Made by a program: the position numbers and the translations under genes
Part shown: positions 13,421 through 36,183 of the stretch, piece after piece
How the letters are laid out: each line of letters opens with the position of its first letter
How positions within the stretch are numbered: the first letter of the stretch is position 1
Notes under the pieces: generated by a model
What the model saw: only the letters and a program-made list of their open reading frames with translations
Database searches by the model: none
Told to the model about the DNA's origin: nothing
Source of the DNA: Candidatus Eisenbacteria bacterium
Lineage (GTDB): Bacteria; Desulfobacterota; Binatia; DP-6
Direction of reading: 5' to 3'
Assembly: GCA_035577985.1 (NCBI GenBank)
Contig: DATJZY010000042.1
Coordinates: forward strand, 124,001 to 188,000
DNA: 64,000 nucleotides

Positions 13421-13436
13421 AGCGGAGCGATGCTCG

Positions 13437-16365: not shown

Positions 16366-16389
16366 AGAACCGCCCCGGCGACCCCGCCA

Positions 16390-18369: not shown

Positions 18370-18569
18370 CCTAGCAACCGACGGGCCCGATCGCGCACGG
18401 CGGGCGCCGAATCGACCCTCACGGCGTCGTGCGCGATTCCTCGCGATCCGGCGGAGAGCTTCGCACGACGCGACCGGGACCACCGCACAGCACCGTCCGC
18501 TCGGCGGCCCTTCGGCGACGAGGCTCGGCGCGTTGGAATCGCGACCGGGCGTCGAAAATGCGTCGCTCC

Positions 18570-20171: not shown

Positions 20172-20173
20172 CC

Positions 20174-20710
20174 TCAGGAACGGCTCTTCCGGTCCGGTAT
20201 GCGGCCGACGAAGGTCCCGATCTTCTCGACCGCACGCGTGAGCGCGTCTCCGGAACGATGCTCGCGCCACGGCTCGATGTCCAGATAGTGGAAACGGTCG
20301 CTCGTCTCGCGGAGCCGGCGGTGCTTCGCCGCCAGTGCTGCCGCGGTCCCGTGGACGCGTGCGGGATGCCCATAGGCGACGGCGCCGGCGGGGACGTCGG
20401 AGGTGACGAGCGACCCGGCGCCGACCACCGCGTGCGCGCCTATCTCGACGCCGCACAGGATGGTCGCGTTGGCGCCCACGTAACACTCCGACCGCAGCAC
20501 GACGCGCCCGAACTTCACCGGCTCGCCCAGCGCGTTGTTCAGCGCCGAGTCGTGGAGGAGGATCGACACCCCGCGAGCGAGCACGACGCCGTCCTCGATG
20601 GTGAGCAGCGAAGCAAAATCGGGCTCGACGTACACGTCCGCGCCGAGGAACACGGCCTGCCCGATGCGCGCCCCCAGGCGGCGCAGGCCGTCGACCCGCG
20701 GATCATCCAT
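20174..20710 (-). CDS. Left-handed beta-helix (hexapeptide) acyltransferase
   Basis: 178 residues from ATG 20710, chosen because GAAGGGG sits 9 bp upstream; ATG 20719 is also possible. The imperfect hexapeptide repeats read FLGADVYVEPDF, IEDGVVLARGVSILLHD, VVLRSECYVGANATILCG and VEIGAHAVVGAGSLVTSDVPAGAVAYGHPARV, the standard WbbJ/maltose-acetyltransferase pattern with the likely catalytic His in LLHDSALNN. It would O-acetylate a sugar using acetyl-CoA in the cytoplasm. It overlaps the Wzt stop by 8 bp and is followed 2 bp later by the GT4 gene, so all are co-translated. Confidence 0.9.
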   Translation of the reverse strand: MDDPRVDGLRRLGARIGQAVFLGADVYVEPDFASLLTIEDGVVLARGVSILLHDSALNNALGEPVKFGRVVLRSECYVGANATILCGVEIGAHAVVGAGSLVTSDVPAGAVAYGHPARVHGTAAALAAKHRRLRETSDRFHYLDIEPWREHRSGDALTRAVEKIGTFVGRIPDRKSRS

Positions 20711-22514
20711 GCGGGGCATCCCCTTCGAACGTGGCCGCGGCGACCGCGACGGGCTCGTGGTAGACGTACCACACCGGACGCTGGGGATCCCCGCCCACGT
20801 TGAACACCGCAGCGATGTCGATCTGATCCATCGGAATGCGCCGCGTGAGGTCCTCGGAGCACTCGACGACCGCAGCCAGAACGGAGTACGAGCCGGGACC
20901 CAGCCGCACGTCGAACGCGAACTCGACCACGAGCCGTGACGCCGATGCGTCCAGCCGCACGCGCTCGTCGATGGTCGTCGTCCCGAGGATGTCCACGCGA
21001 TTGCGATCGCGGACGATGTAGGAGAACTCGATCCGACCGCTGACCGGTGCGAGCCGTTCCGCATGCAGTCGCAGCCGCACGCGCTGGCCGAAGGCGATCT
21101 CGGACACGGGCTCCTGCGTGACCCAGTCGAGGACCTCGACGGCCGTGAGCCGGGCTCGCCCGTTTCCGTACCGTCCGACTTCGCTGTCGGTCGAGCCGAG
21201 ACGCGGGTCCGATCGGAAGGCGAGCGCCGGCGAGGCGTGAACGCGCCCGCCGAGCCACGACACGAGGGTGACCCGAGCACCCGGGCGCTCGGCGGGGGCG
21301 ATCGCCACGATGTGCGGCCCCGGTGCGAGCGCGAAGCGATAGGTCTGGGGACGCGCGGTGATCGCATGGAGGTCGGTGCGACGGGGCTGGCCGTCGATGC
21401 TCACGTCGACCGGGCTCGCGTCGGGGCCGCACCCGAAGGTCAGCTCGAGGAGCGTTCCCGCCGTCCGGAAGGCGGCAAGGGCGCGAGGGTCGTTCGTGTA
21501 GCGACCGAAAGCCTCGCCCTCGCGAAGCGTGAACCAGGGCCAGATGCCGCGCAGAAAGAGCCCGTCGGCCGACAGATCGAGATCGCCGGCGAGCTGCGGG
21601 AGCACGGCGTCGTCCGGCGGCACGGCGGACCGGGCGGCTCCGGCGGACGTCTCGACCGCTGCCTCGGAGACGATCTCCCCGTTCTGCGCCTCGCGCATGC
21701 GCGTGTCGGCCAGATAGCGCTCCACCGCGACACCCGCTTCCCCGAAGTACCGCAGCGCGCCGCCATCGAGCCAGAGTCCCCGGCGACAGAAACGCTTCAC
21801 CGCGTCGGTGGCGTGCGACACGAAGAGCAACGTCGTCCCCCGGTCGACGAGCTGGCGGATGCGCCGCATGCACTTGTGCTGAAAGTACGCGTCACCCACC
21901 GCGAGCGCCTCGTCGACGATCAGGACGTCGGCGTCGACGTGGGCCTGTACCGCGAAGGCCAGCCGGACCATCATGCCGCTCGAGTACAGCCTCACGGGCT
22001 GGTCCAGAAATTCACCGATGTCGGCGAAGGCGGCGATGTCGTCGAACCGGCGCGCAACCTCGGCGCGCGGCATGCCGAGGACGGCGCCGTTGAGGAACAC
22101 GTTCTCCCGGCCGGTGAACTCCGGATTGAAACCGCTCCCGAGCTCCAGCAGCGCCGCCACCCGACCCGTCACGAGGCACTCGCCCGTGGTGGGCGCGAGC
22201 GTCCCGGCGAGAATGTGCAGCAGCGTGCTCTTGCCGCTGCCGTTGCGTCCCACGATCCCGACCGCCTCCCCGCGTCCGACTTCGAACGTGACGTCGTGCA
22301 ACGCCCAGAACTCGCGTCCGAACGTCCGTCCGAACCGCCACAGGAGCTGCTCTTTCAGCCGCTCGTGTGGCCGATCGTAGAGCATGTAGCGCTTGCCGAG
22401 GCCCCGCACGGCGATCGCCACGTCGGCGCGTGTCTGCGTGGAATCGCGCTCGACGGGCGCGACGGTGCTGCGAGCGGTCACGTCATGGCGCAGATGCTGG
22501 AAAAGCGCGCCCAC
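20703..22514 (-). CDS. wzt: Polysaccharide ABC exporter ATPase (Wzt type) with an extra inserted domain
   Basis: 603 residues from GTG 22514 (GTG 22481 is an alternative); typical Wzt proteins are about 400-450. The ABC domain is complete: Walker A GRNGSGKST at 89-97, signature YSSGM at 177-181, Walker B VLIVDEA at 197-203, switch His in FVSH. Residues ~445-590 match the Wzt C-terminal carbohydrate-binding domain (NGRARLTAVEVLDW, IEFSYIVRDR, GSYSVLAAVVE). Between them, ~300-440 is an additional beta-rich domain with VDVSIDGQPRRTDL and RFALAPGPHIVAIAPAE. It energises export and selects finished chains. It pairs by inference with the distant Wzm-type permease at 4.2-5.0 kb. Confidence 0.92.
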   Translation of the reverse strand: MGALFQHLRHDVTARSTVAPVERDSTQTRADVAIAVRGLGKRYMLYDRPHERLKEQLLWRFGRTFGREFWALHDVTFEVGRGEAVGIVGRNGSGKSTLLHILAGTLAPTTGECLVTGRVAALLELGSGFNPEFTGRENVFLNGAVLGMPRAEVARRFDDIAAFADIGEFLDQPVRLYSSGMMVRLAFAVQAHVDADVLIVDEALAVGDAYFQHKCMRRIRQLVDRGTTLLFVSHATDAVKRFCRRGLWLDGGALRYFGEAGVAVERYLADTRMREAQNGEIVSEAAVETSAGAARSAVPPDDAVLPQLAGDLDLSADGLFLRGIWPWFTLREGEAFGRYTNDPRALAAFRTAGTLLELTFGCGPDASPVDVSIDGQPRRTDLHAITARPQTYRFALAPGPHIVAIAPAERPGARVTLVSWLGGRVHASPALAFRSDPRLGSTDSEVGRYGNGRARLTAVEVLDWVTQEPVSEIAFGQRVRLRLHAERLAPVSGRIEFSYIVRDRNRVDILGTTTIDERVRLDASASRLVVEFAFDVRLGPGSYSVLAAVVECSEDLTRRIPMDQIDIAAVFNVGGDPQRPVWYVYHEPVAVAAATFEGDAPHG

Positions 22515-22536: not shown

Positions 22537-24717
22537 TCACACGCCGAGCAATCGCCGCACGCCCCGCCTGAGATTCGCCGATCGGAGGAGGAGCCGGCCC
22601 GCGGCGGAGCGCCGGAAGCGCTCGACGAGACGACCGCCCAGCTCGGCGTCGTATCGAGACGACACGCCCCACGGAAGGTCGGGCTCGACGTCGGGATGGT
22701 TCCACTTCCAGCTCGGTCCGTTCGCGTTGAGCAGATTCGTGAGCTCCGGGCCCCATTCGCGGTACACGTCGGGATGCAGGTTCGCCAGCATCTCGTGCGA
22801 GTAGAGGAAGGCGTCGGAGCGCATCTGGCGGAACATCGACTCCGGCCGAATCCGATAGCGGACGAGCGCGTGAGGAAGGCTGACGCCCAGCGCCCCCGCC
22901 AGGACGAGCCGCAGCCACGATTCGTGATCCTCCAGGCCGTGCTCCATTTCCTTCCGATTCTGCCCGTGGCGGAGGAACCACGCGCGGCGCGCGACCACGA
23001 ACGGGTTCAGCATGTTGTGCCCGAGGAGATAGGGCAGCTCGGCATTCCACGTCGGCCAGATCCCGGCGTGCGTGCCGAAGTACCGCACCCACGAGTACAC
23101 GAAGCCGACGTTCTCGAACCGCTGGAGTACGTCGACGCACCGACCGAAGAACTCGCGCTCGACCAGGTCATCCGCGTCGACGAACGCGATGAATTCCCCG
23201 CGCGCGGCGGCCGCCCCGGCGTTGCGCGTGGGACCGAGGCCCTGATTTCTCGTCCGGACGACCCGGTAGCGCGTATCGCCTTCGAGCTGCTCCGCGAGCG
23301 CCCGGCTCGCTGGATCGTCGCTACCGTCGTCGACGATCACGACCTCGCGCGGGGTGTACGTCGAGGCCTCCACGCTCGCGAGCGTCTCGGGCAGGTAGGC
23401 GCCCAAGTTGTAGAAGGGAATCACGATCGACAGGAGGCCCCTCTGCTCGCCGGCGGCGGCGCCGGGCGCAGGTGCCGGTCGTGTCGTCGTCGTCGGAAAG
23501 AGACGGCGGGTCTCGCGCGCGACGCGTGCGCGCTCGTAGTGCTCCACGCGTGCCGCCAACACCGTCTCGGGTGCACACAACGCCTCGATCCGGGCGCGCG
23601 CCGCCGACCCGATCCGCGCATGCCCCGCAGCGTCGAGCGAGAGGACGTCGCCGAGCTTGCGTTCGAAGTCGCCTTCGAGCGTCCAATCGAACACGAAACC
23701 GGCGATGCCGCCGTCGGCGATCATTTCGGCTTGCCCGCCGGCGGTGGACGCCAGGACGACCTGCCCCATCCCCATCGCTTCCATGCAGGTGTTCGGGAAG
23801 TTCTCCCACACCGACGGCACGAGGACCGCCCACGCCTCGCTCATGAGCCGCAGCGCCTCGGGCCGCGGAACGGCATCGGACCAACGGAGACGGCCGTCGG
23901 CGAACCAACGTCCGTACAGCTTGCGCAGATACCCATGAACCGTCGTCGCCCGTGGTGCGTAGCCCAGATCGCCACCCACGAGCGTCAACCGAAACGTGTG
24001 GCCGCTGTCCCACAGGCGGTCGCACGCCTGGACCAGCGGCAACACGCCCTTGCGCGGCTCCAGGCGGCCCACGGCGACCAGCTCGCCTGGTCGCGGACGG
24101 ACGACCGGTCGCTCGCCGAGCACGAGGGGATACGGCACGCACGCGATCTCGAGGTCGCGTCCGATCGCACGCCGGACCCAGGCCGCGAGGTAGTGGCTCG
24201 GCGAGACGAGCGCGTCGGCGGCGACCACGCAGAACTTCTCCATCTGCCCGGTCCAGTAGTCGGGGAGCTTGAAGCGTGGCTCCTGGTTCGCCTGCGCGAT
24301 GCCGAAGCGGGGGCTGTGAAGGTGGACGACGATCGGCGTCGTGCCGAGACAGGTCCGCTCGGTGAGCTTGCGCTGCAGGAGGTAGTACGGCAGCGCGAGA
24401 TACTCCTGCGATTCGATGACCCCCGGCGCTCCGACGTCCGCTGCGTGCTGCAGGACCCGCGTCGCGATCTCGTAGCTCATCGCGGCTGGCGGCGAGAGCA
24501 CGTCGTAGGGATTGGGATCGTCGCGCACCCCACGGCCCCCTAGATCCACTACGGTGATCCCGGCCGCGGCTCGACGCTGTCGGCTCGGTACGCCGCCGTT
24601 GAAGATCGTGACCTCGTGCCCGCGCGCGGCGAGCAGCCGTGCGTAGCCGTCGACGTAGGTCGCGATGCCGCCGGCGGTCTCGGGCGGGAGCTCCGACGTC
24701 AGCAACCAGATGCGCAT
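22537..24717 (-). CDS. Two-domain glycosyltransferase: GT4 - GT2
   Basis: 726 residues from ATG 24717 (MRIWLLTSELPPETAGG), the canonical GT4 N-terminus; the frame extends 17 codons further upstream but without homology. Residues 1-~400 are family 4 with VAVGRLEPRKGVLPLV and EX7E within VWENFPNTCMEAMGMG. A Thr/Pro/Ala linker lies near 410-430. Residues ~435-700 are family 2 (LLSIVIPFYNLGAYLPETL, VDDGSDD, FVDADDLVEREFF with the DXD). It probably makes two successive linkages of the repeat unit. It is the first gene of the run that continues into wzt 22 bp later and is divergent from the 24.8-kb operon across 95 bp. Confidence 0.9.
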   Translation of the reverse strand: MRIWLLTSELPPETAGGIATYVDGYARLLAARGHEVTIFNGGVPSRQRRAAAGITVVDLGGRGVRDDPNPYDVLSPPAAMSYEIATRVLQHAADVGAPGVIESQEYLALPYYLLQRKLTERTCLGTTPIVVHLHSPRFGIAQANQEPRFKLPDYWTGQMEKFCVVAADALVSPSHYLAAWVRRAIGRDLEIACVPYPLVLGERPVVRPRPGELVAVGRLEPRKGVLPLVQACDRLWDSGHTFRLTLVGGDLGYAPRATTVHGYLRKLYGRWFADGRLRWSDAVPRPEALRLMSEAWAVLVPSVWENFPNTCMEAMGMGQVVLASTAGGQAEMIADGGIAGFVFDWTLEGDFERKLGDVLSLDAAGHARIGSAARARIEALCAPETVLAARVEHYERARVARETRRLFPTTTTRPAPAPGAAAGEQRGLLSIVIPFYNLGAYLPETLASVEASTYTPREVVIVDDGSDDPASRALAEQLEGDTRYRVVRTRNQGLGPTRNAGAAAARGEFIAFVDADDLVEREFFGRCVDVLQRFENVGFVYSWVRYFGTHAGIWPTWNAELPYLLGHNMLNPFVVARRAWFLRHGQNRKEMEHGLEDHESWLRLVLAGALGVSLPHALVRYRIRPESMFRQMRSDAFLYSHEMLANLHPDVYREWGPELTNLLNANGPSWKWNHPDVEPDLPWGVSSRYDAELGGRLVERFRRSAAGRLLLRSANLRRGVRRLLGV

Positions 24718-24774
24718 CGACCGGGCGCCGCGAGTAGCACGTCCCCGGGAGAGCGGCAACGCGGGCACGTGCGC

Positions 24775-24812: not shown

Positions 24813-25757
24813 TTGGCCGTCGCGAGCGTCGTCATCTGCACCCACAACCGCGCCGATCTCGTCGCCCACGCCGTCGGCGCGGCGCTGCCGCAGGTGCGCG
24901 CGTGCGGCGGCGAGGTGATCGTGGTCGACAACGCCTCGACCGACGCGACGCCGACGGTGCTGCGCGACGTCAGCCGCACGTACGGCGACGCCGTCCGCAT
25001 CGTCGAGGAGCCGCGGCTCGGCCTGTCCGTGGCGCGGAACCGTGGCCTGCACGCGGCGCGCGGTGACGTCGTCGCCTACCTCGACGACGACGCCGTGCCG
25101 CGCCCCGGCTGGCTCGCCGCGCTGGTCGCGCCGTACGACGATCCGAAGGTGGTGGCGGTCGGCGGCCGCATCGTGCTGCGCTTCGCGGGCGCGCCGCCGC
25201 CATGGCTCTCGACCGAGATCTACGCCGCGCTCTCCGCGTACGATCTCGGGCCGATCGCGGGGCCCGTCCGCTACGGCCATGCGACCTATCCATTCGGCGC
25301 CAACATCTCGTTCCGCGTCGCGGCCGCGCGCGCGGCCGGCGGCTTCTCGTCCACCGTCGGCCCGCTCGGCCGCCACCAGCTCGTGCACGACGAGACCGAC
25401 CTCTGCTACCGCCTCGAGCACGCGGGCGGCGTCGTGTGGTACACTCCGGATGCCGTCGTCGACCATCACGTCGTCCCCGAGCGGCTGTCGCCGCGCTGGA
25501 TGCTGCGGCGGCACTGGGCCGGCGGGCAGTCGGCCGCCGTCTTCATCCTGCGCAACCGCGGCGTGCTGCGCGCGGTCTGGCGCCTGTGGTGGCTGTACTG
25601 GGGCGCGCTGACCGCGTTGCCGTACGACACCCGCGAGCCGATCGATCCGGGCCGCTTCGCACACGAGTGCCGGCGCCGCGAGGCGCTCGGCTACGTCACC
25701 GGGCTGGTCCGCGCCCTCCCGCGCCTGGCCGAGCTGCGTCGCGACCTCGCGGCATGA
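24813..25757 (+). CDS. GT2 glycosyltransferase
   Basis: 314 residues, apparently from a TTG start at 24813; no ATG or GTG is in frame before the conserved VASVVICTHNRADLV, so the start is set by family alignment. It is a GT-A fold family 2 enzyme with VIVVDNASTDAT, ARNRGLHAARGD, the DXD motif in AYLDDDAVPRPGW and the acceptor motif HDETDLCYRLEHAGG. It should transfer a sugar from a nucleotide donor to a lipid- or protein-linked acceptor at the inner membrane. It is the first gene of a tightly packed plus-strand operon and overlaps the next gene by 4 bp (ATGA). Confidence 0.88.
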   Translation: MAVASVVICTHNRADLVAHAVGAALPQVRACGGEVIVVDNASTDATPTVLRDVSRTYGDAVRIVEEPRLGLSVARNRGLHAARGDVVAYLDDDAVPRPGWLAALVAPYDDPKVVAVGGRIVLRFAGAPPPWLSTEIYAALSAYDLGPIAGPVRYGHATYPFGANISFRVAAARAAGGFSSTVGPLGRHQLVHDETDLCYRLEHAGGVVWYTPDAVVDHHVVPERLSPRWMLRRHWAGGQSAAVFILRNRGVLRAVWRLWWLYWGALTALPYDTREPIDPGRFAHECRRREALGYVTGLVRALPRLAELRRDLAA

Positions 25758-26587
25758 GCGATCCCGTCGTCTCGGTCGTGACGCCCGTGCTCGACGCCGG
25801 GCGCGACCTCGCCGACGCGCTCGGCAGCGTCGCGGCGCAGACGTTCACGCAGTGGGAGCACGTCGTCGTCGACGACGGCTCGACCGACGGCGAGACGGCG
25901 CGCATCCTCGAGCGCGCCCGCACGCGCCCGGGAGTGACGGTGATCCGCACCGAGAACCGCGGGCCCGCCGCGGCGCGCAACCTCGCCATCGAGCGCGCGC
26001 GCGGGCGGTACGTCCTCCCGCTCGACGCCGACGACCATCTGGCGCCGGCGTTCCTGGCGAAGACCGTGCCCGTCCTCGATTCGCAGCCGGCGATCGGGGT
26101 GGTGCATACGTGGGTCGCGCTCGTCGGCGGCCATCAGGGCGTGTGGAAGACCGGGCCGTTCGAGCTCCCCGCCCTTCTCGCCCGCTGCACCGTGCACGTG
26201 ACGTGTCTCTTCCGCCGGAGCCTGTGGGCCGACGTCGGCGGCTTCGACTCGCGATACGTCGAGAGCGCCGAGGACTGGGATTTCTGGATCGGCGTCGCGG
26301 GGCGGGGCACGAGAGCCGTCTGCGTGCCGGAGGTCCTCGCCTACTACCGCCGCACGGCGCGCAGTCGCGAGCGCGCCGCGCGTGCGCCGGGCGTCTCGGG
26401 CAAGCTCATGCGGCAGCTCGCCGAGAAGCACCGGGCCCTCTATGAAGCCCATCTGCCGGACGCGCTGGGGCTCGTCTACGACGAGCTCGCGCGCGTCAGC
26501 GACACGCTCGAGCGGATCTACGCCCATCCGGCGGCGCGGCTCGCGCTCCGCCTGCGCGACGCGGTCCGCAAGCGCGACGAGCCATGA
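25754..26587 (+). CDS. GT2 glycosyltransferase
   Basis: 277 residues from ATG 25754 in a 4-bp ATGA overlap with the preceding gene. The family 2 signature runs VSVVTPVLDAGRDLADAL, VVDDGSTDGE, the donor/metal motif LPLDADDHLAPAF, and the acceptor-side ESAEDWDFWIGVAGRG. The C-terminal ~45 residues (LPDALGLVYDELARVSDTLERI) are helical and may mediate pairing with other enzymes. The overlap at the 3' end with the sulfatase-family gene (ATGA again) shows coupled translation. Substrate unknown. Confidence 0.9.
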   Translation: MSDPVVSVVTPVLDAGRDLADALGSVAAQTFTQWEHVVVDDGSTDGETARILERARTRPGVTVIRTENRGPAAARNLAIERARGRYVLPLDADDHLAPAFLAKTVPVLDSQPAIGVVHTWVALVGGHQGVWKTGPFELPALLARCTVHVTCLFRRSLWADVGGFDSRYVESAEDWDFWIGVAGRGTRAVCVPEVLAYYRRTARSRERAARAPGVSGKLMRQLAEKHRALYEAHLPDALGLVYDELARVSDTLERIYAHPAARLALRLRDAVRKRDEP

Positions 26588-28206
26588 GCCGCGCCCTGCC
26601 GATCGCCTGCACGCTCGCCGTGCTCGCGGGCATGCTCGGCGTCGCCGGGCTCGACGCCTGGCGCGAGGCCGTGGCGCAGGGCTGGATCGAGGACGGCTAC
26701 CGCCATCTGGTCGCCGACGCGTTCTGGGACCGCTTCGACCACGTGGCGCCGATCGGGCTGGGCGTGCTCGTCGGGCTGCTGCTCCTGGTGGCCGCGATGC
26801 GCCGCCGCGTGTCGGCGTGGCGCGAGCTCGCCGTGCCGCTCGTCCTGGTCGCCTTCGTCGCGGGCAGCCGCGGGATCGCCCAGGCGTACGATCTCTTCCG
26901 TGGTCGCGGCCCGAACGTCGTCCTCATCTCCATCGACACGCTGCGCGCCGATCGGCTGGGCACGTACGGCTACGGGCGCCCGATCAGCCCGGCGCTCGAC
27001 GCCCGCCTCTCGGCCGAGGGCGTCGTGTTCGAGGACGCGTGGAGCCAGTCGCCGAAGACGACGCCGTCGCACATGACGATGCTCACCTCCCTCTATCCGT
27101 CGGTGCACGGCGTTCCCCTGTGGATGGGAGCCGGTGCCGCGCCTGCCCTCAATCCGCGCGTCGTGACGCTCGCCGAGGTCCTGAAGAATGCGGGCTACGC
27201 GACCGCCGCATTCACCGGCGGCGCGCACATGCACCGCGATCGCGGCTTCGGCCAGGGCTTCGACGTCTACAAGCACGGCGATCAGTTGAGCCGCACCCTC
27301 GCGTTCCTCGACGCGCGGGGCCGGCAGCCGTTCTTCCTCTTCTTCCACACCTACGAGGTGCACGATCCGTACACGCCGCCGCCCGAGGTGGCGGCGCGCT
27401 GGGCGTCGGACCCGGTGCCCGCGATCGCCGACGCGGTGGCGAAGGTTCGCGACGGCGTCTCGGGGTGGCCGCAGGCGCACAAGATCTTCTGGCAGCCGGT
27501 CGACCCGACCGACGCTCGGCACGTCCGCTACGTGTCCGACCTCTACGACGCCGGCATCAACAAGATGGACGCCGGCACGCTCCCGGCGCTCCTCTCGAAG
27601 CTGGACGCCCTCGGCCTCGCGAACGACACGCTCGTCGTCTTCACGTCCGACCACGGCGAGGCGTTCCAGGAGCACGGCACGTTCCTGCACGAGGACCTGC
27701 ACGTCGAGACGCTGCACGTGCCGCTCGTGCTCCGCTTCCCGCAGCGGCTGCCGGCGGGCCTGCGGGTGAGGACGCCGGCGCGCCTCCTCGACGTGACGCC
27801 GACGATCCTGGACCTCGTGGGCCTTCCCATCCCGGCGCAGGCCGAGGGCGTGAGCCTCGCTCGCATCGCACGCGACCGCCCGGACGCGGCGGTCCCGGAC
27901 GTCGTCTTCTCGGAGTACAGCGACGACGCGACGGGCCGGGTCTTCGAGAGCATCCGCCGCGAGCCGTGGGTGCTGGTCCGCGACGGTGCCGCCGTGCAGC
28001 TCTTCGATGCCAGCAGGGACGGCGGCGAGCGCCGCGACCGCGCCGCGGCCGATCCCGCGCGCGTGGCCGCTCTGCGTACCGAGCTCGACCAGTGGCACGA
28101 CGCCAGCCGGCGCCTCGCCCAGCGCTACGGCCCGCGCGCCGGCGACGTCGCGGCGCCGTCGAAGGAGACGGTCGACCAGCTCCGCGCGCTCGGCTACGTC
28201 GAGTGA
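26584..28206 (+). CDS. Membrane-anchored alkaline-phosphatase-superfamily protein, Thr-type (sulfatase-like)
   Basis: 540 residues. Three hydrophobic segments in the first ~95 residues anchor it with the catalytic domain outside. That domain starts at NVVLISIDTLRADRLG (Asp118), has SPKTTPSHMTMLTSLYP, then HTYEVHDPYTPP and FTSDHGEAFQEHG, and ends in LRALGYVE. In sulfatases the residue two before the motif Pro is Cys or Ser, converted to formylglycine; here it is Thr159, which cannot be converted. The fold is therefore sulfatase-like, but the chemistry is more likely phosphoryl or phosphodiester transfer or hydrolysis with Thr as nucleophile, as in other superfamily members. It is one of three such paralogues in this operon. 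Confidence 0.88.
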   Translation: MSRALPIACTLAVLAGMLGVAGLDAWREAVAQGWIEDGYRHLVADAFWDRFDHVAPIGLGVLVGLLLLVAAMRRRVSAWRELAVPLVLVAFVAGSRGIAQAYDLFRGRGPNVVLISIDTLRADRLGTYGYGRPISPALDARLSAEGVVFEDAWSQSPKTTPSHMTMLTSLYPSVHGVPLWMGAGAAPALNPRVVTLAEVLKNAGYATAAFTGGAHMHRDRGFGQGFDVYKHGDQLSRTLAFLDARGRQPFFLFFHTYEVHDPYTPPPEVAARWASDPVPAIADAVAKVRDGVSGWPQAHKIFWQPVDPTDARHVRYVSDLYDAGINKMDAGTLPALLSKLDALGLANDTLVVFTSDHGEAFQEHGTFLHEDLHVETLHVPLVLRFPQRLPAGLRVRTPARLLDVTPTILDLVGLPIPAQAEGVSLARIARDRPDAAVPDVVFSEYSDDATGRVFESIRREPWVLVRDGAAVQLFDASRDGGERRDRAAADPARVAALRTELDQWHDASRRLAQRYGPRAGDVAAPSKETVDQLRALGYVE

Positions 28207-28210
28207 CGGC

Positions 28211-29128
28211 GTGCCGCGCGTCAGCATAGTCCTCGCGACCCACAACCAGGCCCGCTGGCTTCCCGAGACGATCGCCAGCGTGCGCGCGCAGACGCTCACC
28301 GACTGGGAGCTGCTTCTGGTCGACGACGGCTCGACCGACGACACCGCCGAGGTCGCCGCGCGCGCCGTCACCGACAAGCGCATCCGCTATCTCCCGGGTG
28401 CGCGGCGCGAGCGCGCCGCCGCTCGCAATCGCGGCATCGCCGCCGCCAAGTCGAATCTGGTCGCCTTCCTCGACGGCGACGACCTCTGGCATCCCGAGAA
28501 GCTCGCGCGCCAGACGGCCGCGCTCGAGGCCGTGCCGGACGCCGGGCTCTGCTACACCGTCGCGCGCTACGTCGACGCGGCCGGGGCGCGGCTCCGCATC
28601 CGGCGGCCGCCCGTCCCGCTCGAGGGCGAGATCTTCCCCGCGCTCATGCGAGCGAATCGCATGATCCTCGCTTCCGTTCTGGTGCGGCAGTCGGCCCTCG
28701 ACGAGGCGGGCGCCTTCGACGAGCGGCTTCCGGTCTTCGGCTGCGAGGACTGGGATCTCTGGCTGCGCATCGCGCGGTTCTTCCCGGTCGTCGCGGTGCG
28801 GGACGAGCTCACGTACTACCGGCGCCACGCGGGCAACACCGCGCGCGCACGCGTGCTCGAGAGCGGCCTCGCCGTCGTCGACAAGCACTACGCCGACCCG
28901 ACGACGCCGGCGATCGCGCGCCTCTCCTGCAGCGCGGCGCGTGCCCGGCTGCTGTGGTACCACGCCGGCGCGGCGGTGGAGGACCGCCGGACGACCGGGC
29001 TCGCGCTCGCTGCGCGCGCGGTCGCCGCCGCGCCGTCGTCGCTCGCGAGCCGTCCCGCCGCGGGCGCGCTCGCGACGCTCGCGCTCCCCAAGCTCGTGCT
29101 TCGCGCGCTCGGCCGGTTGCCCGGTTGA
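28211..29128 (+). CDS. GT2 glycosyltransferase
   Basis: 305 residues from GTG 28211, 4 bp after the preceding stop. The N-terminus VPRVSIVLATHNQARWLPET is canonical for family 2. Further motifs are LLVDDGSTDDTAEVA, RERAAARNRGIAAAKS, AFLDGDDLWHPEKL with the DXD-type triad, and FGCEDWDLWLRIARFF at the acceptor site. The C-terminal third is Ala-rich helix without clear transmembrane segments. It belongs to the same operon as the two GT2 genes upstream and, with them, could build a short oligosaccharide on a common acceptor. The precise sugar is not predictable. Confidence 0.9.
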   Translation: MPRVSIVLATHNQARWLPETIASVRAQTLTDWELLLVDDGSTDDTAEVAARAVTDKRIRYLPGARRERAAARNRGIAAAKSNLVAFLDGDDLWHPEKLARQTAALEAVPDAGLCYTVARYVDAAGARLRIRRPPVPLEGEIFPALMRANRMILASVLVRQSALDEAGAFDERLPVFGCEDWDLWLRIARFFPVVAVRDELTYYRRHAGNTARARVLESGLAVVDKHYADPTTPAIARLSCSAARARLLWYHAGAAVEDRRTTGLALAARAVAAAPSSLASRPAAGALATLALPKLVLRALGRLPG

Positions 29129-29152
29129 ATCCCGTGTGAGAAAAGCGCGCGC

Positions 29153-30139
29153 GTGGGGCTGCTCCTGCCGTACGGGATGCGCTCGCGCCTGCATCACGCG
29201 CGCACGGGCTTGGAACGGGGAGTGCGAAGCCTTCTCTTCGGCGGCACGCCGTCCTGGCAGCGCCATCCGAACCGGCTCCCGTGGTTCGACCAGCCCGACG
29301 CGATGGACGAGGCGATCCGCCGCGCCCGGAGCGCGGACGAGCGCGCGACGCTCGAGAGTTGGGTGCGCGACGGCTACGTCGTGCTGCGCGACGTCCTCGA
29401 ACCGGCCGACATCGACGCGATGATCACGACGCTCGACGGCCTGTGGGACGCGCCGGCGCCGATCGCGAACCTCGACCTGCTCGATCTGCGCGATGCGCCC
29501 GACGCCCCGCCCCGGGCCGTGCCACACACGACTCTGCTCGGGCTCCCGCAAGAGCAGCGCGCCCGCATGCGCGCCCACTCCGACTGGCGCATCCACGGCT
29601 TCCATTACGTGAACGCGCCCGCCCACCGGATCTTCCACAGCGAGCGCCTGCGCGCCGCGGTGACCCAGATCCTGGGACGCCGCGCACGGCCGTTCGCCGC
29701 CATCAACTTCATGGCCGGCAGCCAGCAGCACCTGCACCAGGACATGGCCGTCTTCCACATCTATCCGCACAACCTCCTCGTCGGCGCATGGATCGCGTGC
29801 GAGGACATCAAGCCCGAGAGCGGTCCGCTCGTCATCTACGCGGGCTCGCACCGGGCGGGGATGTTCCCCGGGTTCACCGACTACCCGCAGACGAACCTCC
29901 GCACCGTCGACGCCACCACCGCGGCGTCCTATCAATCGTGGGTCGACGACCTCGCGACGCGCTTCGCACGCCACGAGTTCCTCGCCCGCAAGGGCGAGGT
30001 CCTGCTCTGGCACGGCATGCTGATCCACGGCGGCGCCCCGGTCGGCCGCCGCGGCACGTCGCGCAAGTCGTTCGTCCTCCACTACACCGTACGCGGCGCG
30101 GATCGGGCGCGCGAGGTCCGTGGTCCGTTCAACTGGTAG
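29153..30139 (+). CDS. PhyH-family Fe(II)/2-oxoglutarate dioxygenase
   Basis: 328 residues from GTG 29153; no strong ribosome site, but family homology begins well inside. It is a phytanoyl-CoA dioxygenase-type fold: VRDGYVVLRDVLEPADIDAM near 70-90, the iron ligands His195 and Asp197 in LHQDMAVFH, the distal His at about 292 in LLWHGMLIHGG, and the likely 2-oxoglutarate Arg304 in TSRKSF. SGPLVIYAGSHRAGMFPGF is also typical. It would hydroxylate a small molecule or lipid/sugar substrate. Its place between glycosyltransferase and phosphatase-superfamily genes suggests it modifies an acceptor or a product of this operon. It overlaps the next gene by 20 bp. Confidence 0.88.
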   Translation: MGLLLPYGMRSRLHHARTGLERGVRSLLFGGTPSWQRHPNRLPWFDQPDAMDEAIRRARSADERATLESWVRDGYVVLRDVLEPADIDAMITTLDGLWDAPAPIANLDLLDLRDAPDAPPRAVPHTTLLGLPQEQRARMRAHSDWRIHGFHYVNAPAHRIFHSERLRAAVTQILGRRARPFAAINFMAGSQQHLHQDMAVFHIYPHNLLVGAWIACEDIKPESGPLVIYAGSHRAGMFPGFTDYPQTNLRTVDATTAASYQSWVDDLATRFARHEFLARKGEVLLWHGMLIHGGAPVGRRGTSRKSFVLHYTVRGADRAREVRGPFNW

Positions 30140-31979
30140 CGCGCGACGTCTGTTCGCCGTGCTCGCGCTCGCGGCGAGCGTCGCCTGCCACCGCGACGCG
30201 CCGCTGGGGCCGACGCTCACGGTGGAGGACGTGGTCCAGCACCTCGATGCGGATCTCGGCGGCGGCGAGCGGGAGCTGGTCGACCCCGGTGACGCGCTCC
30301 GCGGCGACGGCGCCCGCACCGGCCTCGTCCTCGCACCCGGCGCCAAGACGAGCGTGCGCGTCGCCGTGCCCGAGCGCGCGGCGCTGCGCTTCGGCGTCGG
30401 CGTCGCCGGCGACAAGACGCGGGACGATTCCCGCACCGGCGTGCGCTTCACGCTCACGGTCGACGGCACGCCGCTCTTCACGCGCACGGTGAATCCCGCC
30501 GGTGATCGTCGCGACCGCCGCTGGTTCGACGAGCGCATCGACCTGGCGGCGTACGCGGGGCGGTCGGTCGAGATCGCGCTCGCCGTCGAGGCCGAGGCAC
30601 CCGGCAAGCCCGTCGCGGGCACCGCGGCCTGGAGCCGCGTGCGGGTCGTGCAGGCGACGGCGCTCGAACGACAGCGCAGGGCGTCCGATCGGCCCAACGT
30701 CGTCGTGCTCCTGGTCGACACGCTGCGCGCCGACGCGGTCGGTCTCTATGGGGCGGGCCCCGGCGCCTCGCCGGCGCTCGATGCCCTCGGGGCCCGCGGC
30801 ACGGTGTTCGCCACCGCCGTCAGTCAATCGTCGTGGACGCTGCCGTCGGTCGCGTCGATCATGACGGGCCTGCCCTCACGCCGGCACGGCGCCGTCGGCG
30901 AAGCCGAGCACGGAGCGAACCATGCTCACGCGCGGTGGGGCTTCCTGGCCGATCACCTGACGACCTGGGCCGAGGCGGCGGCCCACGCGGGCATCACGAC
31001 CTTCGCCGCGTCGGCGAACCCGCTCGTCTCGGTGGGCACGAACCTCGCGCAGGGTTTCGAGACGGTCGTCGAGCTGCCGTGGGATCCGGACGGGCACGAC
31101 TGGGCGTCGGCGGAGGAGGTGAACGGCGCGTTCCTCGCCTGGCTCCCGCGCCGCGAGGGCTACCGCTTCGTCGCGTACCTCCACTACATGGAGCCGCACG
31201 ATCCCTACACGCCGCCCGCCGCGCGCACAGCGCCCACCGGCGTGCGCCCGGCGATCGCCAGCGGCTGGGTGCGCGACGCCGCCAATCGCATCAACTGGAG
31301 CGGCGGCGATAAGCTGACGGCCGACGAGGTGGCGTACCTCCGGACCCGCTACGCGGGCGAGGTGCAGGCGTGGGATCGCGCCTTCGGCGCGCTCACGACC
31401 GCGCTCGCCCGCGCCGGTCTCGACCGGGACACCATCATCGTCGTGACCGCGGATCACGGTGAGGAGTTCCAGGAGCACGGGCGCCTCACACACGGCTCGC
31501 ATCTCTACGAGGAATCGATCCGCGTGCCGCTCGTGCTGGCGGGTCCGGGCATTCCGGCGCAGCGGCGCAGCGACGTCGCACAGGGGATCGACCTCTTCCC
31601 GACCCTCGCCCGCGTGCTCGGGACCGACGTGCCGCCCCACCTGCCGGGTCGCGATCTCCTGGGCGCCCCCGACGAACGCCCGGCGATCGTCGAGACGGCG
31701 AGCGGGATCGGGCCCGACGGCAGCGCGGTCAGTCTGGTCGCACTCCGCACGGCGCGCTGGAAGCTCGTGCAGACACCGCGCCTGGGTCGCAACGAGGTGT
31801 ACGACCTCGAGCACGACCCGCGCGAGCAGACCGATCGCAGCCAGGCCGCACCCGAAGCGGCCGCGCTCCTGGCGGCGCTCGAGCTCTGGCGGGGCCAGGC
31901 GCCGGCCGCCGCCACGGTCGCGGGCACGAGCGATCCCGGCTTCGCCGCGAAGCTGCGCGCGCTGGGGTACGCGGAGTGA
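30120..31979 (+). CDS. Putative lipoprotein, alkaline-phosphatase superfamily, Thr-type (sulfatase-like)
   Basis: 619 residues from GTG 30120, overlapping the dioxygenase gene by 20 bp. The N-terminus is basic and then hydrophobic (RRLFAVLALAASVAC), with Cys23 a possible, though weak, lipidation site. Residues ~40-180 form a beta-sandwich-like domain (FTLTVDGTPLFTRTVNP, DERIDLAAYAGRSVE). The catalytic domain starts at NVVVLLVDTLRADAVG; the nucleophile motif is SSWTLPSVASIMTG with Thr240 instead of Cys/Ser, followed by HYMEPHDPYTPP and VTADHGEEFQEHGRL. It ends in LRALGYAE. It is probably periplasmic and not a formylglycine sulfatase. The extra N-terminal domain could bind glycan. Confidence 0.87.
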   Translation: MVRSTGSARRLFAVLALAASVACHRDAPLGPTLTVEDVVQHLDADLGGGERELVDPGDALRGDGARTGLVLAPGAKTSVRVAVPERAALRFGVGVAGDKTRDDSRTGVRFTLTVDGTPLFTRTVNPAGDRRDRRWFDERIDLAAYAGRSVEIALAVEAEAPGKPVAGTAAWSRVRVVQATALERQRRASDRPNVVVLLVDTLRADAVGLYGAGPGASPALDALGARGTVFATAVSQSSWTLPSVASIMTGLPSRRHGAVGEAEHGANHAHARWGFLADHLTTWAEAAAHAGITTFAASANPLVSVGTNLAQGFETVVELPWDPDGHDWASAEEVNGAFLAWLPRREGYRFVAYLHYMEPHDPYTPPAARTAPTGVRPAIASGWVRDAANRINWSGGDKLTADEVAYLRTRYAGEVQAWDRAFGALTTALARAGLDRDTIIVVTADHGEEFQEHGRLTHGSHLYEESIRVPLVLAGPGIPAQRRSDVAQGIDLFPTLARVLGTDVPPHLPGRDLLGAPDERPAIVETASGIGPDGSAVSLVALRTARWKLVQTPRLGRNEVYDLEHDPREQTDRSQAAPEAAALLAALELWRGQAPAAATVAGTSDPGFAAKLRALGYAE

Positions 31980-33553
31980 CCCGCGCCCTCGTCCTGCTCC
32001 TCCTCGCCGCCGCCTGCCGCCCCGACTGCACGCCCGAGCAAGGGAAGGAGGCGCCGATCGTCCTTCTCGTGACCGTCGACACGCTGCGCGCCGATCATCT
32101 GGGGGCATACGGAAGCGCACGCGTGCACACGCCCGAGTTCGATCGACTCGCCGCCGAGAGCCTGCTCTTCGAGCGCGCGTACGCGCAGGCGAGCATCACG
32201 CTGCCATCGCACGTGAGCCTGCTCACCTCCACGCCCCTCGCGACGCATGGCGTGCTCTCGAACAAGGATTCGACACCGCCCGAGGTCGCCACTCTGCCGG
32301 GCGAGTTCGCGCGCGCGGGCTACCACACCGCAGCGTTCGTGAGCGCGTACCACCTCGGCCCCCAGATGGTCCTCGGCCGCATGCTCGATCGGCTGGAACG
32401 TTTCGAGGCGCCCGAACGCATCTCCCACCCGCGGCGGGCCGACGATACGACGGATCGCGCGCTCGCGTGGATTCGCGGCGTCTGCCGCGAGCCGACCTTC
32501 GCCTGGATCCACCTCTGGGATCCGCACATGCCCTACACGCCGCCGTCGCCCTTCGACCGCACCTACTACCGCGGCGATCCGCGCGATCCCGCTCACGACA
32601 CCATGGCCGGCGTGCAGCTCGATTGGGCCCTCTACGACCTATCGAAGCTCCGCGTCCACCTCGGGCCCCATGCCGGAGTCCTGCGCGACCTCAAGCAGCG
32701 TTTCACGACCAACAGCCGTGGGGCCCGCCGTCTCCTGCTCTGGCCCGACACCTCCCCGCCGGGCCGCTACCGCGAGGTCGTCGGTCTCGTGCAGCGACCC
32801 GCGGCCGAGCTGCGCCGCGAGCTCCCCTATGGTCCGGGCATCGCCGGGTTCCTCGAAGGACTGCGCGACCTCGAGTATCCCCGCGCGCAATACGCCGGCG
32901 AGGTGTCGTGGGTGGACAGCCAGGTCGGCCGTCTGCGCGACACCCTCGTCGCCTGGGGGCTGACGGATCGGACGATCCTCGTGGTCACCGCCGACCACGG
33001 CGAAGGGCTCGGCGAGCACGGTGTCTATTTCTCGCACGTCGGCACGTGGGAGGAGATGCTGCACGTCCCGATGCTCGTCTGGGCCCCAGGCCGTCTCGCC
33101 CCGGCGCGGCGCTCGGATCTCGCGAGCGGCCTCGACGTCGCGCCCACCCTGCTCCAGCTCGCCGCTCTCGCCCCGCCACCGACCATGCAGGGTCGGGACC
33201 TCGTCGCATCGCATGCGCCGGCCGCGCCGCTCGTCCTCGAGCAGGTGAAGGGCACGCAGGTGGCGCTCCGAGACGACCGCTGGAAGCTCGTCCGGACCCT
33301 CCACACCTTTCGGCACAACGACGCGTTCGATCGCGAGGCAGGCACGATCGAGCTGTACGACGTGGTTTCCGACCCCGGTGAGCGCACCGATCGGGCGCGC
33401 GACGCGCCCGCCGTCGCCACGCAGCTGGGCGCGATCCTGGACCGCTGGCTCGCCGCCCACCAGGTCGATGGCGACGGGTACGGTCGCGCTGCCCGGACCA
33501 CGACCACGCCCGAGCAGCGCGATCGGCTCCGCGCGCTCGGCTACGCGGACTGA
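31976..33553 (+). CDS. Lipoprotein, alkaline-phosphatase superfamily, Thr-type (sulfatase-like)
   Basis: 525 residues from GTG 31976 in a 4-bp GTGA overlap with the previous gene. The short signal LVLLLLAAAC gives a lipobox with Cys14. The catalytic domain begins at once: VLLVTVDTLRADHLGAYG, then ASITLPSHVSLLTS with Thr75 at the nucleophile position, HLWDPHMPYTPP, and VTADHGEGLGEHGVYF; the end reads LRALGYAD. A ~100-residue insertion around 190-290 is specific to this paralogue. Same inference as its neighbours: exported, metal-dependent hydrolase or transferase acting on a phospho- or ester-substituted glycan or lipid. It stops 4 bp before the convergent hypothetical gene. Confidence 0.88.
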   Translation: MTRALVLLLLAAACRPDCTPEQGKEAPIVLLVTVDTLRADHLGAYGSARVHTPEFDRLAAESLLFERAYAQASITLPSHVSLLTSTPLATHGVLSNKDSTPPEVATLPGEFARAGYHTAAFVSAYHLGPQMVLGRMLDRLERFEAPERISHPRRADDTTDRALAWIRGVCREPTFAWIHLWDPHMPYTPPSPFDRTYYRGDPRDPAHDTMAGVQLDWALYDLSKLRVHLGPHAGVLRDLKQRFTTNSRGARRLLLWPDTSPPGRYREVVGLVQRPAAELRRELPYGPGIAGFLEGLRDLEYPRAQYAGEVSWVDSQVGRLRDTLVAWGLTDRTILVVTADHGEGLGEHGVYFSHVGTWEEMLHVPMLVWAPGRLAPARRSDLASGLDVAPTLLQLAALAPPPTMQGRDLVASHAPAAPLVLEQVKGTQVALRDDRWKLVRTLHTFRHNDAFDREAGTIELYDVVSDPGERTDRARDAPAVATQLGAILDRWLAAHQVDGDGYGRAARTTTTPEQRDRLRALGYAD

Positions 33554-33557
33554 CCCC

Positions 33558-34103
33558 TCATTGCTTGCGCTCGCGGCGCTCGAGGACGAGCCGGCGCGCG
33601 TGGTTCAGCACGCCGTCGGGCAGGTCGCGCGACTTCGCCATGCGCGCGAGGTCGTGCTCCATCAGCGTCGGCAGCAGGCCGATGGCGGCCGGCAGCGGCG
33701 TCTTCGGGTTCTTCACGAGCGCGACGCGGACCTGGTAGTTCCGCATCCACTCCTTCTTGTCGGCGATCGTCCGGAGCTGCTCTTCGTCGGTCAGCCGGTT
33801 CTGCGCGATCATCGCGATCTCCTGCTCGGTGATGCGCGGGTTGTAGAGGACGTAGCGCCGCACGACCTTGTTCGAGTCGTGCGTCAGCAGGATGCGCGCC
33901 TCCTTCCCGCCCAGCATGGCGAGCTTCACCTTCTCGACGACGTTCATGCGGCTGATCTGCACCGCGATGCTCGGCAGCGGCGCCTTGGGCGGCGGGATGT
34001 CCTCGCGCAGGAAGTCGACCGGGATCCAGATGTCCTCGGCCGTGCCGTTCTTCACCCGCTCGGCGGCGTCCTCCGCGAGGAGGTCGTCTTCGCTGTCAGC
34101 CAT
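33558..34103 (-). CDS. Conserved hypothetical helical protein
   Basis: 181 residues, cytoplasmic by composition. After an acidic N-terminus (MADSEDDLLAEDAAERV) it is helical with a HEAT-like pair: KVKLAMLGGKEARILL followed by SNKVVRRYVLYNPRITEQEI and QVRVALVKNPKTPLPAAIGLL. I recognise this as a type of protein conserved in deltaproteobacteria but know no function. It is the last gene of the valS-nadC-birA-coaX-EF-G operon and overlaps the EF-G-like stop by 8 bp, so the two are translationally coupled and may be linked to translation or stress. Confidence 0.85.
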   Translation of the reverse strand: MADSEDDLLAEDAAERVKNGTAEDIWIPVDFLREDIPPPKAPLPSIAVQISRMNVVEKVKLAMLGGKEARILLTHDSNKVVRRYVLYNPRITEQEIAMIAQNRLTDEEQLRTIADKKEWMRNYQVRVALVKNPKTPLPAAIGLLPTLMEHDLARMAKSRDLPDGVLNHARRLVLERRERKQ

Positions 34104-36183
34104 GTTTCTCGGCGCGGGCCGCCTGGGCTTCCTTGATGACCTTGTCGGCGATGTGCGGGGGGACTTCGTCGTAGTGGGCGAGCTCCATCTCGAAGTCGCC
34201 GCGCCCCTGCGTCATCGAGCGGAGGTCGGGCGCGTAGCGCAGGACCTCTGCCAGCGGGACGTTGGCGCGCACCATCTGCTGGCCGATGCCCTTCGGCTCG
34301 GCGCCGAGCACGCGACCGCGCCGGCTGTTCAAGTCGCCGATGATGTCGCCCATGAACTCGTCGGGCACCGTCACGCTGAGCAGCATGATGGGCTCGAGCA
34401 GCACCGGGCGCGAGTCCTCGAACGCCTTCTTGAACCCCAGGTGCGCGGCGATCTTGAACGACATCTCCGAGGAGTCGACGTCGTGGTAGGACCCGAAGTA
34501 GAGCTTCGCCTTCAAGTCGACGATCGGGTAGCCGGCCAGGATCCCCTGCGGCAGCATCTCGCGCACGCCCTTCTCGACCGCCGGAATGAACTGGCGCGGG
34601 ATCGTCCCCCCCACGATCGCGTCCTCGAACTCGAAGCCGGCGCCGCGCGCGAGCGGCGACAGCTCGAGCCAGCAGTCGCCGTACTGGCCGTGCCCGCCGG
34701 TCTGACGCTTGTGCTTGCCCTGCGCCTTAGCCGTGCCCTTGATGGTCTCGCGGTACGGTACCTTCGGCGCCTTCAGCTCGACCTCGACGCCGAACTTGCG
34801 CCGCAGGCGTTCGACCGCGACCTCGATGTGGAGCTGACCCGTTCCGGAGACGACGAACTCCTTGGTCTGCTCGTCGCGGTGAACGCGTAGGGCCGTGTCT
34901 TCTTCCATCAGGCGGTGCAGCGCGCTCATCACCTTGTCGTCGTCGGCCTTGTTCTTGGCGGAGAGCGCGAACGAGATCGCCGCCGGCGAATCCGGCGTGG
35001 GCGGGTAGACGATGGGGTTGCGCTCGTCGGCGAGCGTGTCGCCGGTCGCCGTGTCCTTCAGCTTCGCGAGCGCGATGATGTCGCCGGCGATCGCCAGCGG
35101 CACCTGGCTCTGCTTCTTGCCTTCGAGCTTGAGCAGATGCCCGAGCCGCTCCCGCGCGTCACGATAGGTATTGTGCACGTCGAGGTTGGGCGTGGCCTTC
35201 CCCGACACGATGCGGATCACCGACAGCTTGCCCGCGAAGGGATCGACCACCGTCTTGAAGACGAACGCCGAGAACGGCGCGGCCGGATCGGGCGCGCGCT
35301 CGATCTCGTCGCCGGTCTTGGGGTTCGTGCCCTTCCACGGCGGCAGCTCGCCCGGCGACGGCAGGAGATCGACGGTGGCGTCGAGCAGCGCGTGGAGGCC
35401 GATCCCCTTCGCGCCCGCGCCGCACAGGATCGGCAGGAACTTGCCGGTACGTGTTCCCTCGCGCAGCCCCGCCCGCAGCTCGTCGGGCGAGAGCTCGGTG
35501 CCTTCGAGGTACTTCTCGAGCAGGTCGTCGTTCGCCTCGGCGATCGTTTCGACCAGCTGATCGCGCGCGGCGGCGATCTCGTCGGCGAGATCGGCGGGCG
35601 GCTGCGTCTCCTGGACCGCGTCGCCCTGGTAGACCCACGCCTTCCCGGACAGGACGTCGACGACGCCCTTGAACTCCCCCTCGGCGCCGATCGGAACCTG
35701 GAGCACCGCGGGCTTCGCGCCGAGACTCTTCAGGTCCTCGAGCGCATTGTCGATGCGCGCCCGCTCGCGGTCGAGCCGCGTGACGAACCCGATCCGCGGC
35801 AGGTCGAGCTCCTCGCACCAGCGCCAGAGCTTCTCGGCCTCGACCTTGATCTCGCCCCCGCCCGAGCCGAGGACGAACACGGCGCCGCTCGCGGCGTACA
35901 GGCAGTTGCGCGAGTCGTGCAGGAACGAGGAGTAGCCCGGCGTGTCGATCACGTTGAGGTCGATCTTCTTCCAGGCGCAGTGGTGCAACCCCGCCGTGAT
36001 CGAGCTGCGACGGCGCTGCTCCTCGGGCTCGATGTCGAAGGCCGACGAGCCGTCCTCCGTCCGGCCGATCCGCGTGACCCCGCCAGCCGCGAACAGGAGC
36101 GCGTCCGACACCAGCGTCTTTCCGACGCCGCCCTGCCCGACGACGGCCACGTTGCGGAGCTTGCGCGGATCGTCAACTGCCAT
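34096..36183 (-). CDS. EF-G-like translational GTPase (divergent)
   Basis: 695 residues with full EF-G architecture: G domain with P-loop GQGGVGKT, switch II DTPGYSSFLH, then domains II-V ending KVIKEAQAARAEKHG. It differs from canonical FusA: the NKxD base-specificity motif reads TRLD (FVTRLDRERARIDN), switch I reads EEQRRRSSITAG instead of a GIT-type motif, and the domain IV tip is QTGGHGQYGDCWLELSP. The Asn-to-Thr change could alter guanine recognition or rate. Its likely role is a specialised EF-G paralogue (ribosome recycling or stress) rather than the main translocase. It overlaps coaX by 11 bp and the hypothetical gene by 8 bp. Confidence 0.85.
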   Translation of the reverse strand: MAVDDPRKLRNVAVVGQGGVGKTLVSDALLFAAGGVTRIGRTEDGSSAFDIEPEEQRRRSSITAGLHHCAWKKIDLNVIDTPGYSSFLHDSRNCLYAASGAVFVLGSGGGEIKVEAEKLWRWCEELDLPRIGFVTRLDRERARIDNALEDLKSLGAKPAVLQVPIGAEGEFKGVVDVLSGKAWVYQGDAVQETQPPADLADEIAAARDQLVETIAEANDDLLEKYLEGTELSPDELRAGLREGTRTGKFLPILCGAGAKGIGLHALLDATVDLLPSPGELPPWKGTNPKTGDEIERAPDPAAPFSAFVFKTVVDPFAGKLSVIRIVSGKATPNLDVHNTYRDARERLGHLLKLEGKKQSQVPLAIAGDIIALAKLKDTATGDTLADERNPIVYPPTPDSPAAISFALSAKNKADDDKVMSALHRLMEEDTALRVHRDEQTKEFVVSGTGQLHIEVAVERLRRKFGVEVELKAPKVPYRETIKGTAKAQGKHKRQTGGHGQYGDCWLELSPLARGAGFEFEDAIVGGTIPRQFIPAVEKGVREMLPQGILAGYPIVDLKAKLYFGSYHDVDSSEMSFKIAAHLGFKKAFEDSRPVLLEPIMLLSVTVPDEFMGDIIGDLNSRRGRVLGAEPKGIGQQMVRANVPLAEVLRYAPDLRSMTQGRGDFEMELAHYDEVPPHIADKVIKEAQAARAEKHG

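Follow-up and report, generated by a model that had tools for sequence, protein, structure and literature searches.

We analysed a 64,000-nucleotide stretch of contig DATJZY010000042.1 (hereafter, the window), which carries at positions 24813–33553 an operon of seven plus-strand genes in the order GT2a–GT2b–S1–GT2c–PhyH–S2–S3. GT2a, GT2b and GT2c encode family 2 glycosyltransferases (GTs), PhyH encodes a dioxygenase, and S1, S2 and S3 encode sulfatase-fold proteins with Thr at the nucleophile position (Thr-type). In our assessment, there is about an even chance that these genes form the decoration end of a variable, O-antigen-like polysaccharide locus, exported by an ATP-binding cassette (ABC) transporter in a family of Myxococcota, and that the Thr-type enzymes act on phosphoesters, by transfer or by hydrolysis. 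The locus is more than an ordinary O-antigen cluster and less than a categorically new system.

The original prediction described seven plus-strand genes packed with 4–20 bp overlaps or short gaps, and our gene models and junctions agree with it. The pairs GT2a/GT2b, GT2b/S1 and S2/S3 each overlap by 4 bp and PhyH/S2 by 20 bp, while gaps of 4 bp and 24 bp separate S1 from GT2c and GT2c from PhyH, respectively. Third-position GC is high in the reading frames of the operon, which supports their being coding. Longer open reading frames (ORFs) enclose GT2b and GT2c, and both gene calls were confirmed by Pfam. Pfam domains and nucleophile motifs likewise agree with the predicted count of three GT2, one PhyH and three Thr-type proteins.

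Conservation of the operon and its locus

The operon is the right-hand part of a larger locus, in which an ABC-2 permease and a Wzt ATPase both occur and whose gene layout predicts an ABC-exported surface polysaccharide. The seven genes had been taken for a self-contained system; this does not hold, as the gene content is variable and the same locus also includes Wzm/Wzt and additional GTs.

Conservation was assessed in a sample of one GTDB order, comprising seven genomes from five genera. The sample includes the window's genome, which has a nearly complete assembly; a close relative in L035 is listed under Myxococcota, on which ground a Binatota origin was discarded. GT2 and Thr-type genes were clustered in five other genomes of the order (G001, G002, G003, G004 and G005), and in G006 S3 lies beside PhyH on a 3.5 kb contig. 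G001 carries GT2a, GT2b, GT2c, S1 and two S2-type genes, with PhyH on the opposite strand. Its cluster ends at a gene without Pfam match that is paired with an EF-G-like gene, and on the other side are GT4, Wzt and an isocitrate/isopropylmalate dehydrogenase (IDH) gene, as in the window. One G002 contig, which terminates in a copy of the same unknown gene, encodes GT2a, GT2b, an additional GT2, S3, a methyltransferase-like protein, PhyH and S2; a second G002 contig holds the unknown gene together with EF-G. In G005, the genes beside EF-G are three of S2 type together with GT2b, GT2c, one more GT2 and a GT4. G004 has GT2a, GT2b, a methyltransferase-like gene, another GT2 and one S gene, and G003 an S2-type gene followed by a GT2 with 41% identity to GT2a. 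The unknown gene and EF-G adjoin in G001, G003, G004, G005 and one G002 contig, and the pair bounds the cluster in G001 and G005. Gene absences in G003, G004 and G006 are not firm, because their contigs are fragmented.

Orthologues of GT2a share 57–70% identity in G001, G002 and G004, those of GT2b 55–63% in G001, G002, G004 and G005, and those of GT2c 58–59% in G001 and G005. The S1 orthologue of G001 has 54–58% identity, and S3 orthologues in G002 and G006 have 51–52%. S2 homologues, one to three per genome in G001, G002, G003 and G005, fall into one supported clade of eight. In the tree, S1, S2 and S3 form three well supported, long-separated clades and are therefore old paralogues, not recent duplicates. 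Gene order differs among genera and gene content varies; the grouping is nevertheless more than chance, since the gene set is conserved across genera. The predicted alternation of cytoplasmic GTs with exported sulfatase-fold proteins is thus real, and it is conserved in relatives.

Mixed loci also occur in another family of the class. L106 (genome G015) interleaves GT4, PF01663, PF00884, PF01663, GT4, GT2, PF00884, PMT_2, UDP-glucose dehydrogenase and further GTs; in its stretch 329–18772, the PF00884 and PF01663 proteins are Thr-type. L107 (G009, sister genus) is similar, and no description of polysaccharide loci like these two was found in open-access text. The original prediction had named homologues that almost never neighbour each other in related genomes as the sign of a chance grouping. 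Such neighbours were found instead, in the clusters of G001–G005, the S3/PhyH pair of G006 and the L106 and L107 loci.

PhyH retains the HxD...H iron triad (as HQD...H) and the 2-oxoglutarate-binding Arg, and its residues H195, D197, H287, H292 and R304 were invariant in an alignment of 10 homologues. It matches human PHYH (2a1x) with E 1.7e-9. Orthologues in G001 and G002 share 61–65% identity, whereas the complete genome G005 has no PhyH anywhere. Within a 395-genome phylum sample, matches at E 1e-30 were confined to the window's genome and G001. Homologues beyond the family (36–43% identity) share a C-terminal GPFNW motif. Some of them, as in Microcystis, have no glycan neighbours; in cyanobacterial L037 and L038, genes resembling Wzm, Wzt and a sulfotransferase adjoin the PhyH relative (Wzm and the sulfotransferase were identified by reading the sequence). 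PhyH is an accessory of the locus and not part of its core, because it is missing from G005 and its homologues elsewhere stand alone or beside Wzt. The GPFNW subfamily (L036–L044) occurs in cyanobacteria and in beta- and gammaproteobacterial metagenome-assembled genomes, often without nearby glycan genes.

Active site, fold and family of S1, S2 and S3

A single transmembrane anchor had been predicted for S1, but hydropathy revealed three hydrophobic stretches, which begin near residues 2, 50 and 76. Two likely lipoproteins had also been proposed. S3 has a convincing lipobox (LLAAAC); S2 is plausible but less certain (SVAC), as its L035 orthologue has a hydrophobic anchor without a clear lipobox. 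S2 further has an N-terminal beta-rich domain with strands at 67–178 in a low-confidence model.

The nucleophile motifs are KTTPSH in S1, WTLPSV in S2 and ITLPSH in S3. All three carry Thr where formylglycine (FGly) sulfatases have Cys, and all lack the FGly-stabilising Arg: in place of the signature [CS]-x-P-x-R they read T-T-P-S-H, T-L-P-S-V and T-L-P-S-H, whereas the Arg of the signature is 99% conserved in S1-family sulfatases (PMC5066984). An FGly sulfatase identity, as annotation would give it, is ruled out by this motif. In an alignment of 22 divergent members (A4), conservation extends to the metal-site residues D19, D257 and H258 and to T60 at the nucleophile position, where Thr is nearly invariant; two further His positions are retained. 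In MCR-1, Thr is the phosphate-accepting nucleophile and Glu, Asp and His are zinc ligands (PMC5031297). The pattern D19/T60/D257/H258 corresponds to Glu246/Thr285/Asp465/His466 of MCR-1, by motif and not by superposition.

Overall similarity pointed elsewhere. The PF00884 domain and S1-family fold were recovered, with S1-family sulfatases as the top Foldseek matches (E 5e-22 and 3e-19, from weak models), and the family profile matched best to choline sulfatase, phosphonate monoester hydrolases and other S1-family enzymes. No EptA or LtaS structure was among the 60 best profile matches, and NCBIfam EptA/MCR models aligned over short segments only (DHGE), far below cut-off and without full-length homology. 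The suggested kinship with phosphoethanolamine or phosphoglycerol transferases therefore fails, the best sequence and fold matches being S1-family sulfatases and phosphonate monoester hydrolases. Membership in EptA/LtaS is ruled out by the profile and fold ranking, though the active-site pattern is compatible. Pfam gave a weak PF01663 phosphodiesterase signal in S1, S2 and S3, and SGSH_C matched weakly at the C-terminal part. AlphaFold models were built from five sequences and reached a predicted local distance difference test (pLDDT) of 56–60, too weak for placement of the active site or the C-terminal tail.

Relatives on haloarchaeal plasmids retain C-x-P-S-R within similar DxLRxD and ADHGE surroundings. 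As these relatives still have Cys, the comparison suggests that the Cys-to-Thr change occurred within the S1–S3 branch. A late His (DHG...H) was considered as a mark of phosphotransfer and dropped, since these Cys-type relatives have similar surroundings. Judged from profile and Foldseek matches together with the motif, S1–S3 descend from sulfatase-fold enzymes and have a Thr-type active site.

S1–S3 are members of an expanded family, apparently uncharacterised, that has a conserved C-terminal LRALGY tail. The window's genome has about 30 PF00884 genes, and 19 of the 28 that were typed (about two thirds) are Thr-type and so, by motif, not FGly sulfatases; the typing rested on motif reading and was ambiguous for a few genes. 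Thr-type PF00884 proteins almost always end in LR/KALGY plus two residues, while CSPTR, CTAGR and CMPAR types do not. The tail, LR(A/S)LGY(V/A/L)x at the extreme C-terminus, is absent from Cys-type paralogues and was also seen on one PF01663 protein (L106:5399-7402). Within the class, a genome can have as many as 27 family-profile matches, some of which may be Cys types, and most of the matches listed reach the profile end, tail included; elsewhere in the phylum, strong family matches are sporadic. Of 14 Thr-type loci in the window's genome, 5 have a GT2 no more than 5 kb away, compared with 5.6% of the genome (P about 0.0007; P 0.005 without the window locus), and so have 0 of 9 Cys-type or other PF00884 genes. 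GT/Thr-type neighbourhoods recur, yet most family members lie elsewhere. If the family generalises, many genes annotated 'sulfatase' would be something else; the locus context makes the substrate of the Thr-type proteins testable, and the LRALGY tail offers a simple search marker.

Proposed pathway and competing explanations

GT2 enzymes work in the cytoplasm and use nucleotide sugars, PhyH proteins need 2-oxoglutarate to oxidise their substrates, and Wzm/Wzt transporters export polysaccharide. By their family, GT2a, GT2b and GT2c would extend or branch a lipid-linked glycan in the cytoplasm, and PhyH, where present, may hydroxylate a cytoplasmic precursor, e.g. a sugar, lipid or acyl substituent. 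The products of the Wzm and Wzt genes observed in the locus would then export the glycan. Beyond the inner membrane, a metal-activated Thr of S1 (membrane-anchored) and of S2 and S3 (lipid- or membrane-anchored) would attack a phosphate ester or diester, whereby S1–S3 would add a phospho-substituent to the glycan or lipid carrier, or take one off. Such a pathway may represent a layer of phospho-decoration on the little-studied surface polysaccharides of uncultured Myxococcota. We infer the substrates of S1–S3, their action after export, phosphate over sulfate chemistry and the choice between transfer and hydrolysis; on the last point, transfer is slightly favoured because anchored, long-diverged paralogues alternate with GTs. 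A wider generalisation is tentative: the exported Thr-nucleophile family could be a series of glycan-specific phosphotransferases of Myxococcota polysaccharide loci, decorating single sugars after export, that evolved from FGly-type sulfatases by a change from Cys-x-P-x-R to Thr-x-P-x-[HVT] and is marked by LRALGY.

Several points weigh against phosphoester chemistry on a glycan. Profile and fold place S1–S3 closest to FGly sulfatases and phosphonate monoester hydrolases rather than to EptA/LtaS, and the structure models are weak. The DxLRxD and ADHGE surroundings, being shared with Cys-type haloarchaeal relatives, are uninformative on chemistry; only the Thr and the loss of the Arg are informative. 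Nor is the family dedicated to glycan loci, since over half of the genome's Thr-type genes have no GT2 close by.

Among the alternatives, the strongest is that the Thr-type proteins are recycling or trimming phosphodiesterases or phosphatases, acting on lipid carriers, phospholipids or exported glycan without decorating activity. Their closest relatives in fold and sequence are hydrolases, phosphonate monoester hydrolases among them, all three carry the PF01663 signal, and PF01663 phosphodiesterases adjoin Thr-type proteins in L106. We nonetheless consider this rather unlikely: two to three anchored, long-diverged paralogues among GTs suggest dedicated biosynthetic steps, and locus-specific paralogues would be superfluous for an enzyme of general recycling. 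It is improbable that S1–S3 act as sulfatases through Thr, or through some unknown modified form of this residue, and desulfate a sulfated glycan. Thr is not known to be a substrate of formylglycine generation, the [CS]-x-P-x-R signature with its conserved Arg is absent from S1, S2 and S3, and Pfam gave no sulfotransferase within the window's polysaccharide locus; what speaks for desulfation is that the closest solved relatives are sulfatases and that the cyanobacterial PhyH relatives lie beside a sulfotransferase-like gene. Loss of the FGly motif, and a C-terminal tail that could be a docking element, would also fit catalytically degenerate subunits with a structural or regulatory role, but this is very improbable, as the conservation of D19, D257, H258 and T60 in divergent members argues for catalysis. 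A chance grouping of unrelated genes is hardly credible: one complete genome lacks PhyH and the order of genes differs among genera, yet the GT2a, GT2b and GT2c orthologues and S clades cluster across the family, partly at the same chromosomal border.

Surrounding genes and comparison with known systems

Coordinates of the locus and its borders are given in Table 1. The best NCBIfam matches of the Wzt-like ATPase are teichoic-acid and galactan export ATPases, below cut-off. Left of the operon and on the opposite strand, a GT4 accompanies the GT4-GT2 fusion and the Wzt-like ATPase.

Table 1. Genes of the window's polysaccharide locus and its borders (window positions)
Feature	Position	Strand	Evidence and remarks
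IDH gene, left locus border	2681-4072
Wzm-like ABC-2 permease	4208-5026 (start approximate)	+	PF01061 at G000:C42:128274-128897 (window 4274-4897)
Remaining polysaccharide locus	7676-20486	mixed	Pfam: GT2-GT4 fusion, double methyltransferase, GT4, methyltransferase, PMT_2-like (+), one protein without Pfam match, GT4
Wzt-like ABC ATPase with Wzt_C domain	20703-22514	-	PF00005, PF14524
GT4-GT2 fusion glycosyltransferase, divergent operon neighbour	22537-24718	-	PF00534 and PF00535; likely start 24718, ORF opens 24768
GT2a, family 2 glycosyltransferase	24813-25757	+	TTG start; PF00535 2.3e-28; no membrane segment
GT2b, family 2 glycosyltransferase	25754-26587	+	PF00535 3.3e-26
S1, membrane-anchored Thr-type sulfatase-fold enzyme	26584-28206	+	PF00884 4.8e-42; C-terminus LRALGYVE
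GT2c, family 2 glycosyltransferase	28211-29128	+	PF00535 1.1e-30
PhyH-type Fe(II)/2-oxoglutarate dioxygenase	29153-30139	+	PF05721 1.2e-23
S2, exported Thr-type sulfatase-fold enzyme	30120-31979	+	PF00884 1.6e-37; C-terminus LRALGYAE
S3, probable lipoprotein, Thr-type sulfatase-fold enzyme	31976-33553	+	PF00884 4.1e-44; C-terminus LRALGYAD
Gene without any Pfam match, right border	33558-34103	-
EF-G-like gene, right border	34096-36183	-

Described Wzm/Wzt O-antigen or surface-polysaccharide loci resemble the window locus in their Wzm-like permease, Wzt with a C-terminal carbohydrate-binding domain, GT2/GT4 enzymes and methyltransferases, and in variable content at a fixed chromosomal site. Unlike them, the window locus and its counterparts in relatives also encode two or three exported Thr-type sulfatase-fold enzymes and, in some cases, PhyH; about 16 kb separates Wzm from Wzt in the window. 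S1–S3 share fold, overall sequence, the metal-ligand Asp pair and the DHG region with FGly-dependent S1-family sulfatases (SulfAtlas S1, PF00884; choline sulfatase), but have Thr for Cys/Ser, no CxPxR Arg and an extra LRALGY tail. Phosphonate monoester hydrolases/phosphodiesterases (SulfAtlas S1_0; 4uph, 2w8s) are among the best profile matches and have the Asp-His metal pair; they use FGly, whereas S1–S3 have Thr and are exported and anchored. EptA/MCR phosphoethanolamine transferases share the Thr nucleophile, the membrane anchor (in S1) and the short DHGE segment, yet show no full-length homology, and the first metal ligand of S1–S3 is Asp, not Glu. The Group A carbohydrate cluster gacA-L has a single LtaS-type transferase, GacH. 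It unites GTs and extracytoplasmic glycerol-phosphate decoration in one cluster (PMC12282279), and we propose it as a parallel in how the window locus may work, by GTs and extracytoplasmic phospho-decoration; gacA-L is Gram-positive and lacks PhyH and a paralogue series. No described system with Thr-type sulfatase relatives, PhyH in O-antigen clusters or the tail motif was found in open-access text, in keeping with the earlier claim that no named system has this composition.

The locus contains unusual fusions at 7676-10321 (GT2-GT4), 10378-12288 (double methyltransferase) and 22537-24718 (GT4-GT2). Five other genomes of the family have a conserved counterpart (42–53%) of the protein encoded at 33558-34103, each beside the EF-G-like gene, and this protein is a candidate partner for the EF-G paralogue. 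In two families of the class, a Thr-type PF00884 gene with a GT2 after it forms a second conserved pair (L109:6668-9717, L110:6087-9167 and G000:C118:55979-57905); a radical SAM gene comes next in L109 and L110. Finally, the window encodes at 50124-52685 (plus strand) a sulfatase of Cys type, whose CSPTR motif is that of a normal FGly sulfatase and which is unrelated to the operon.

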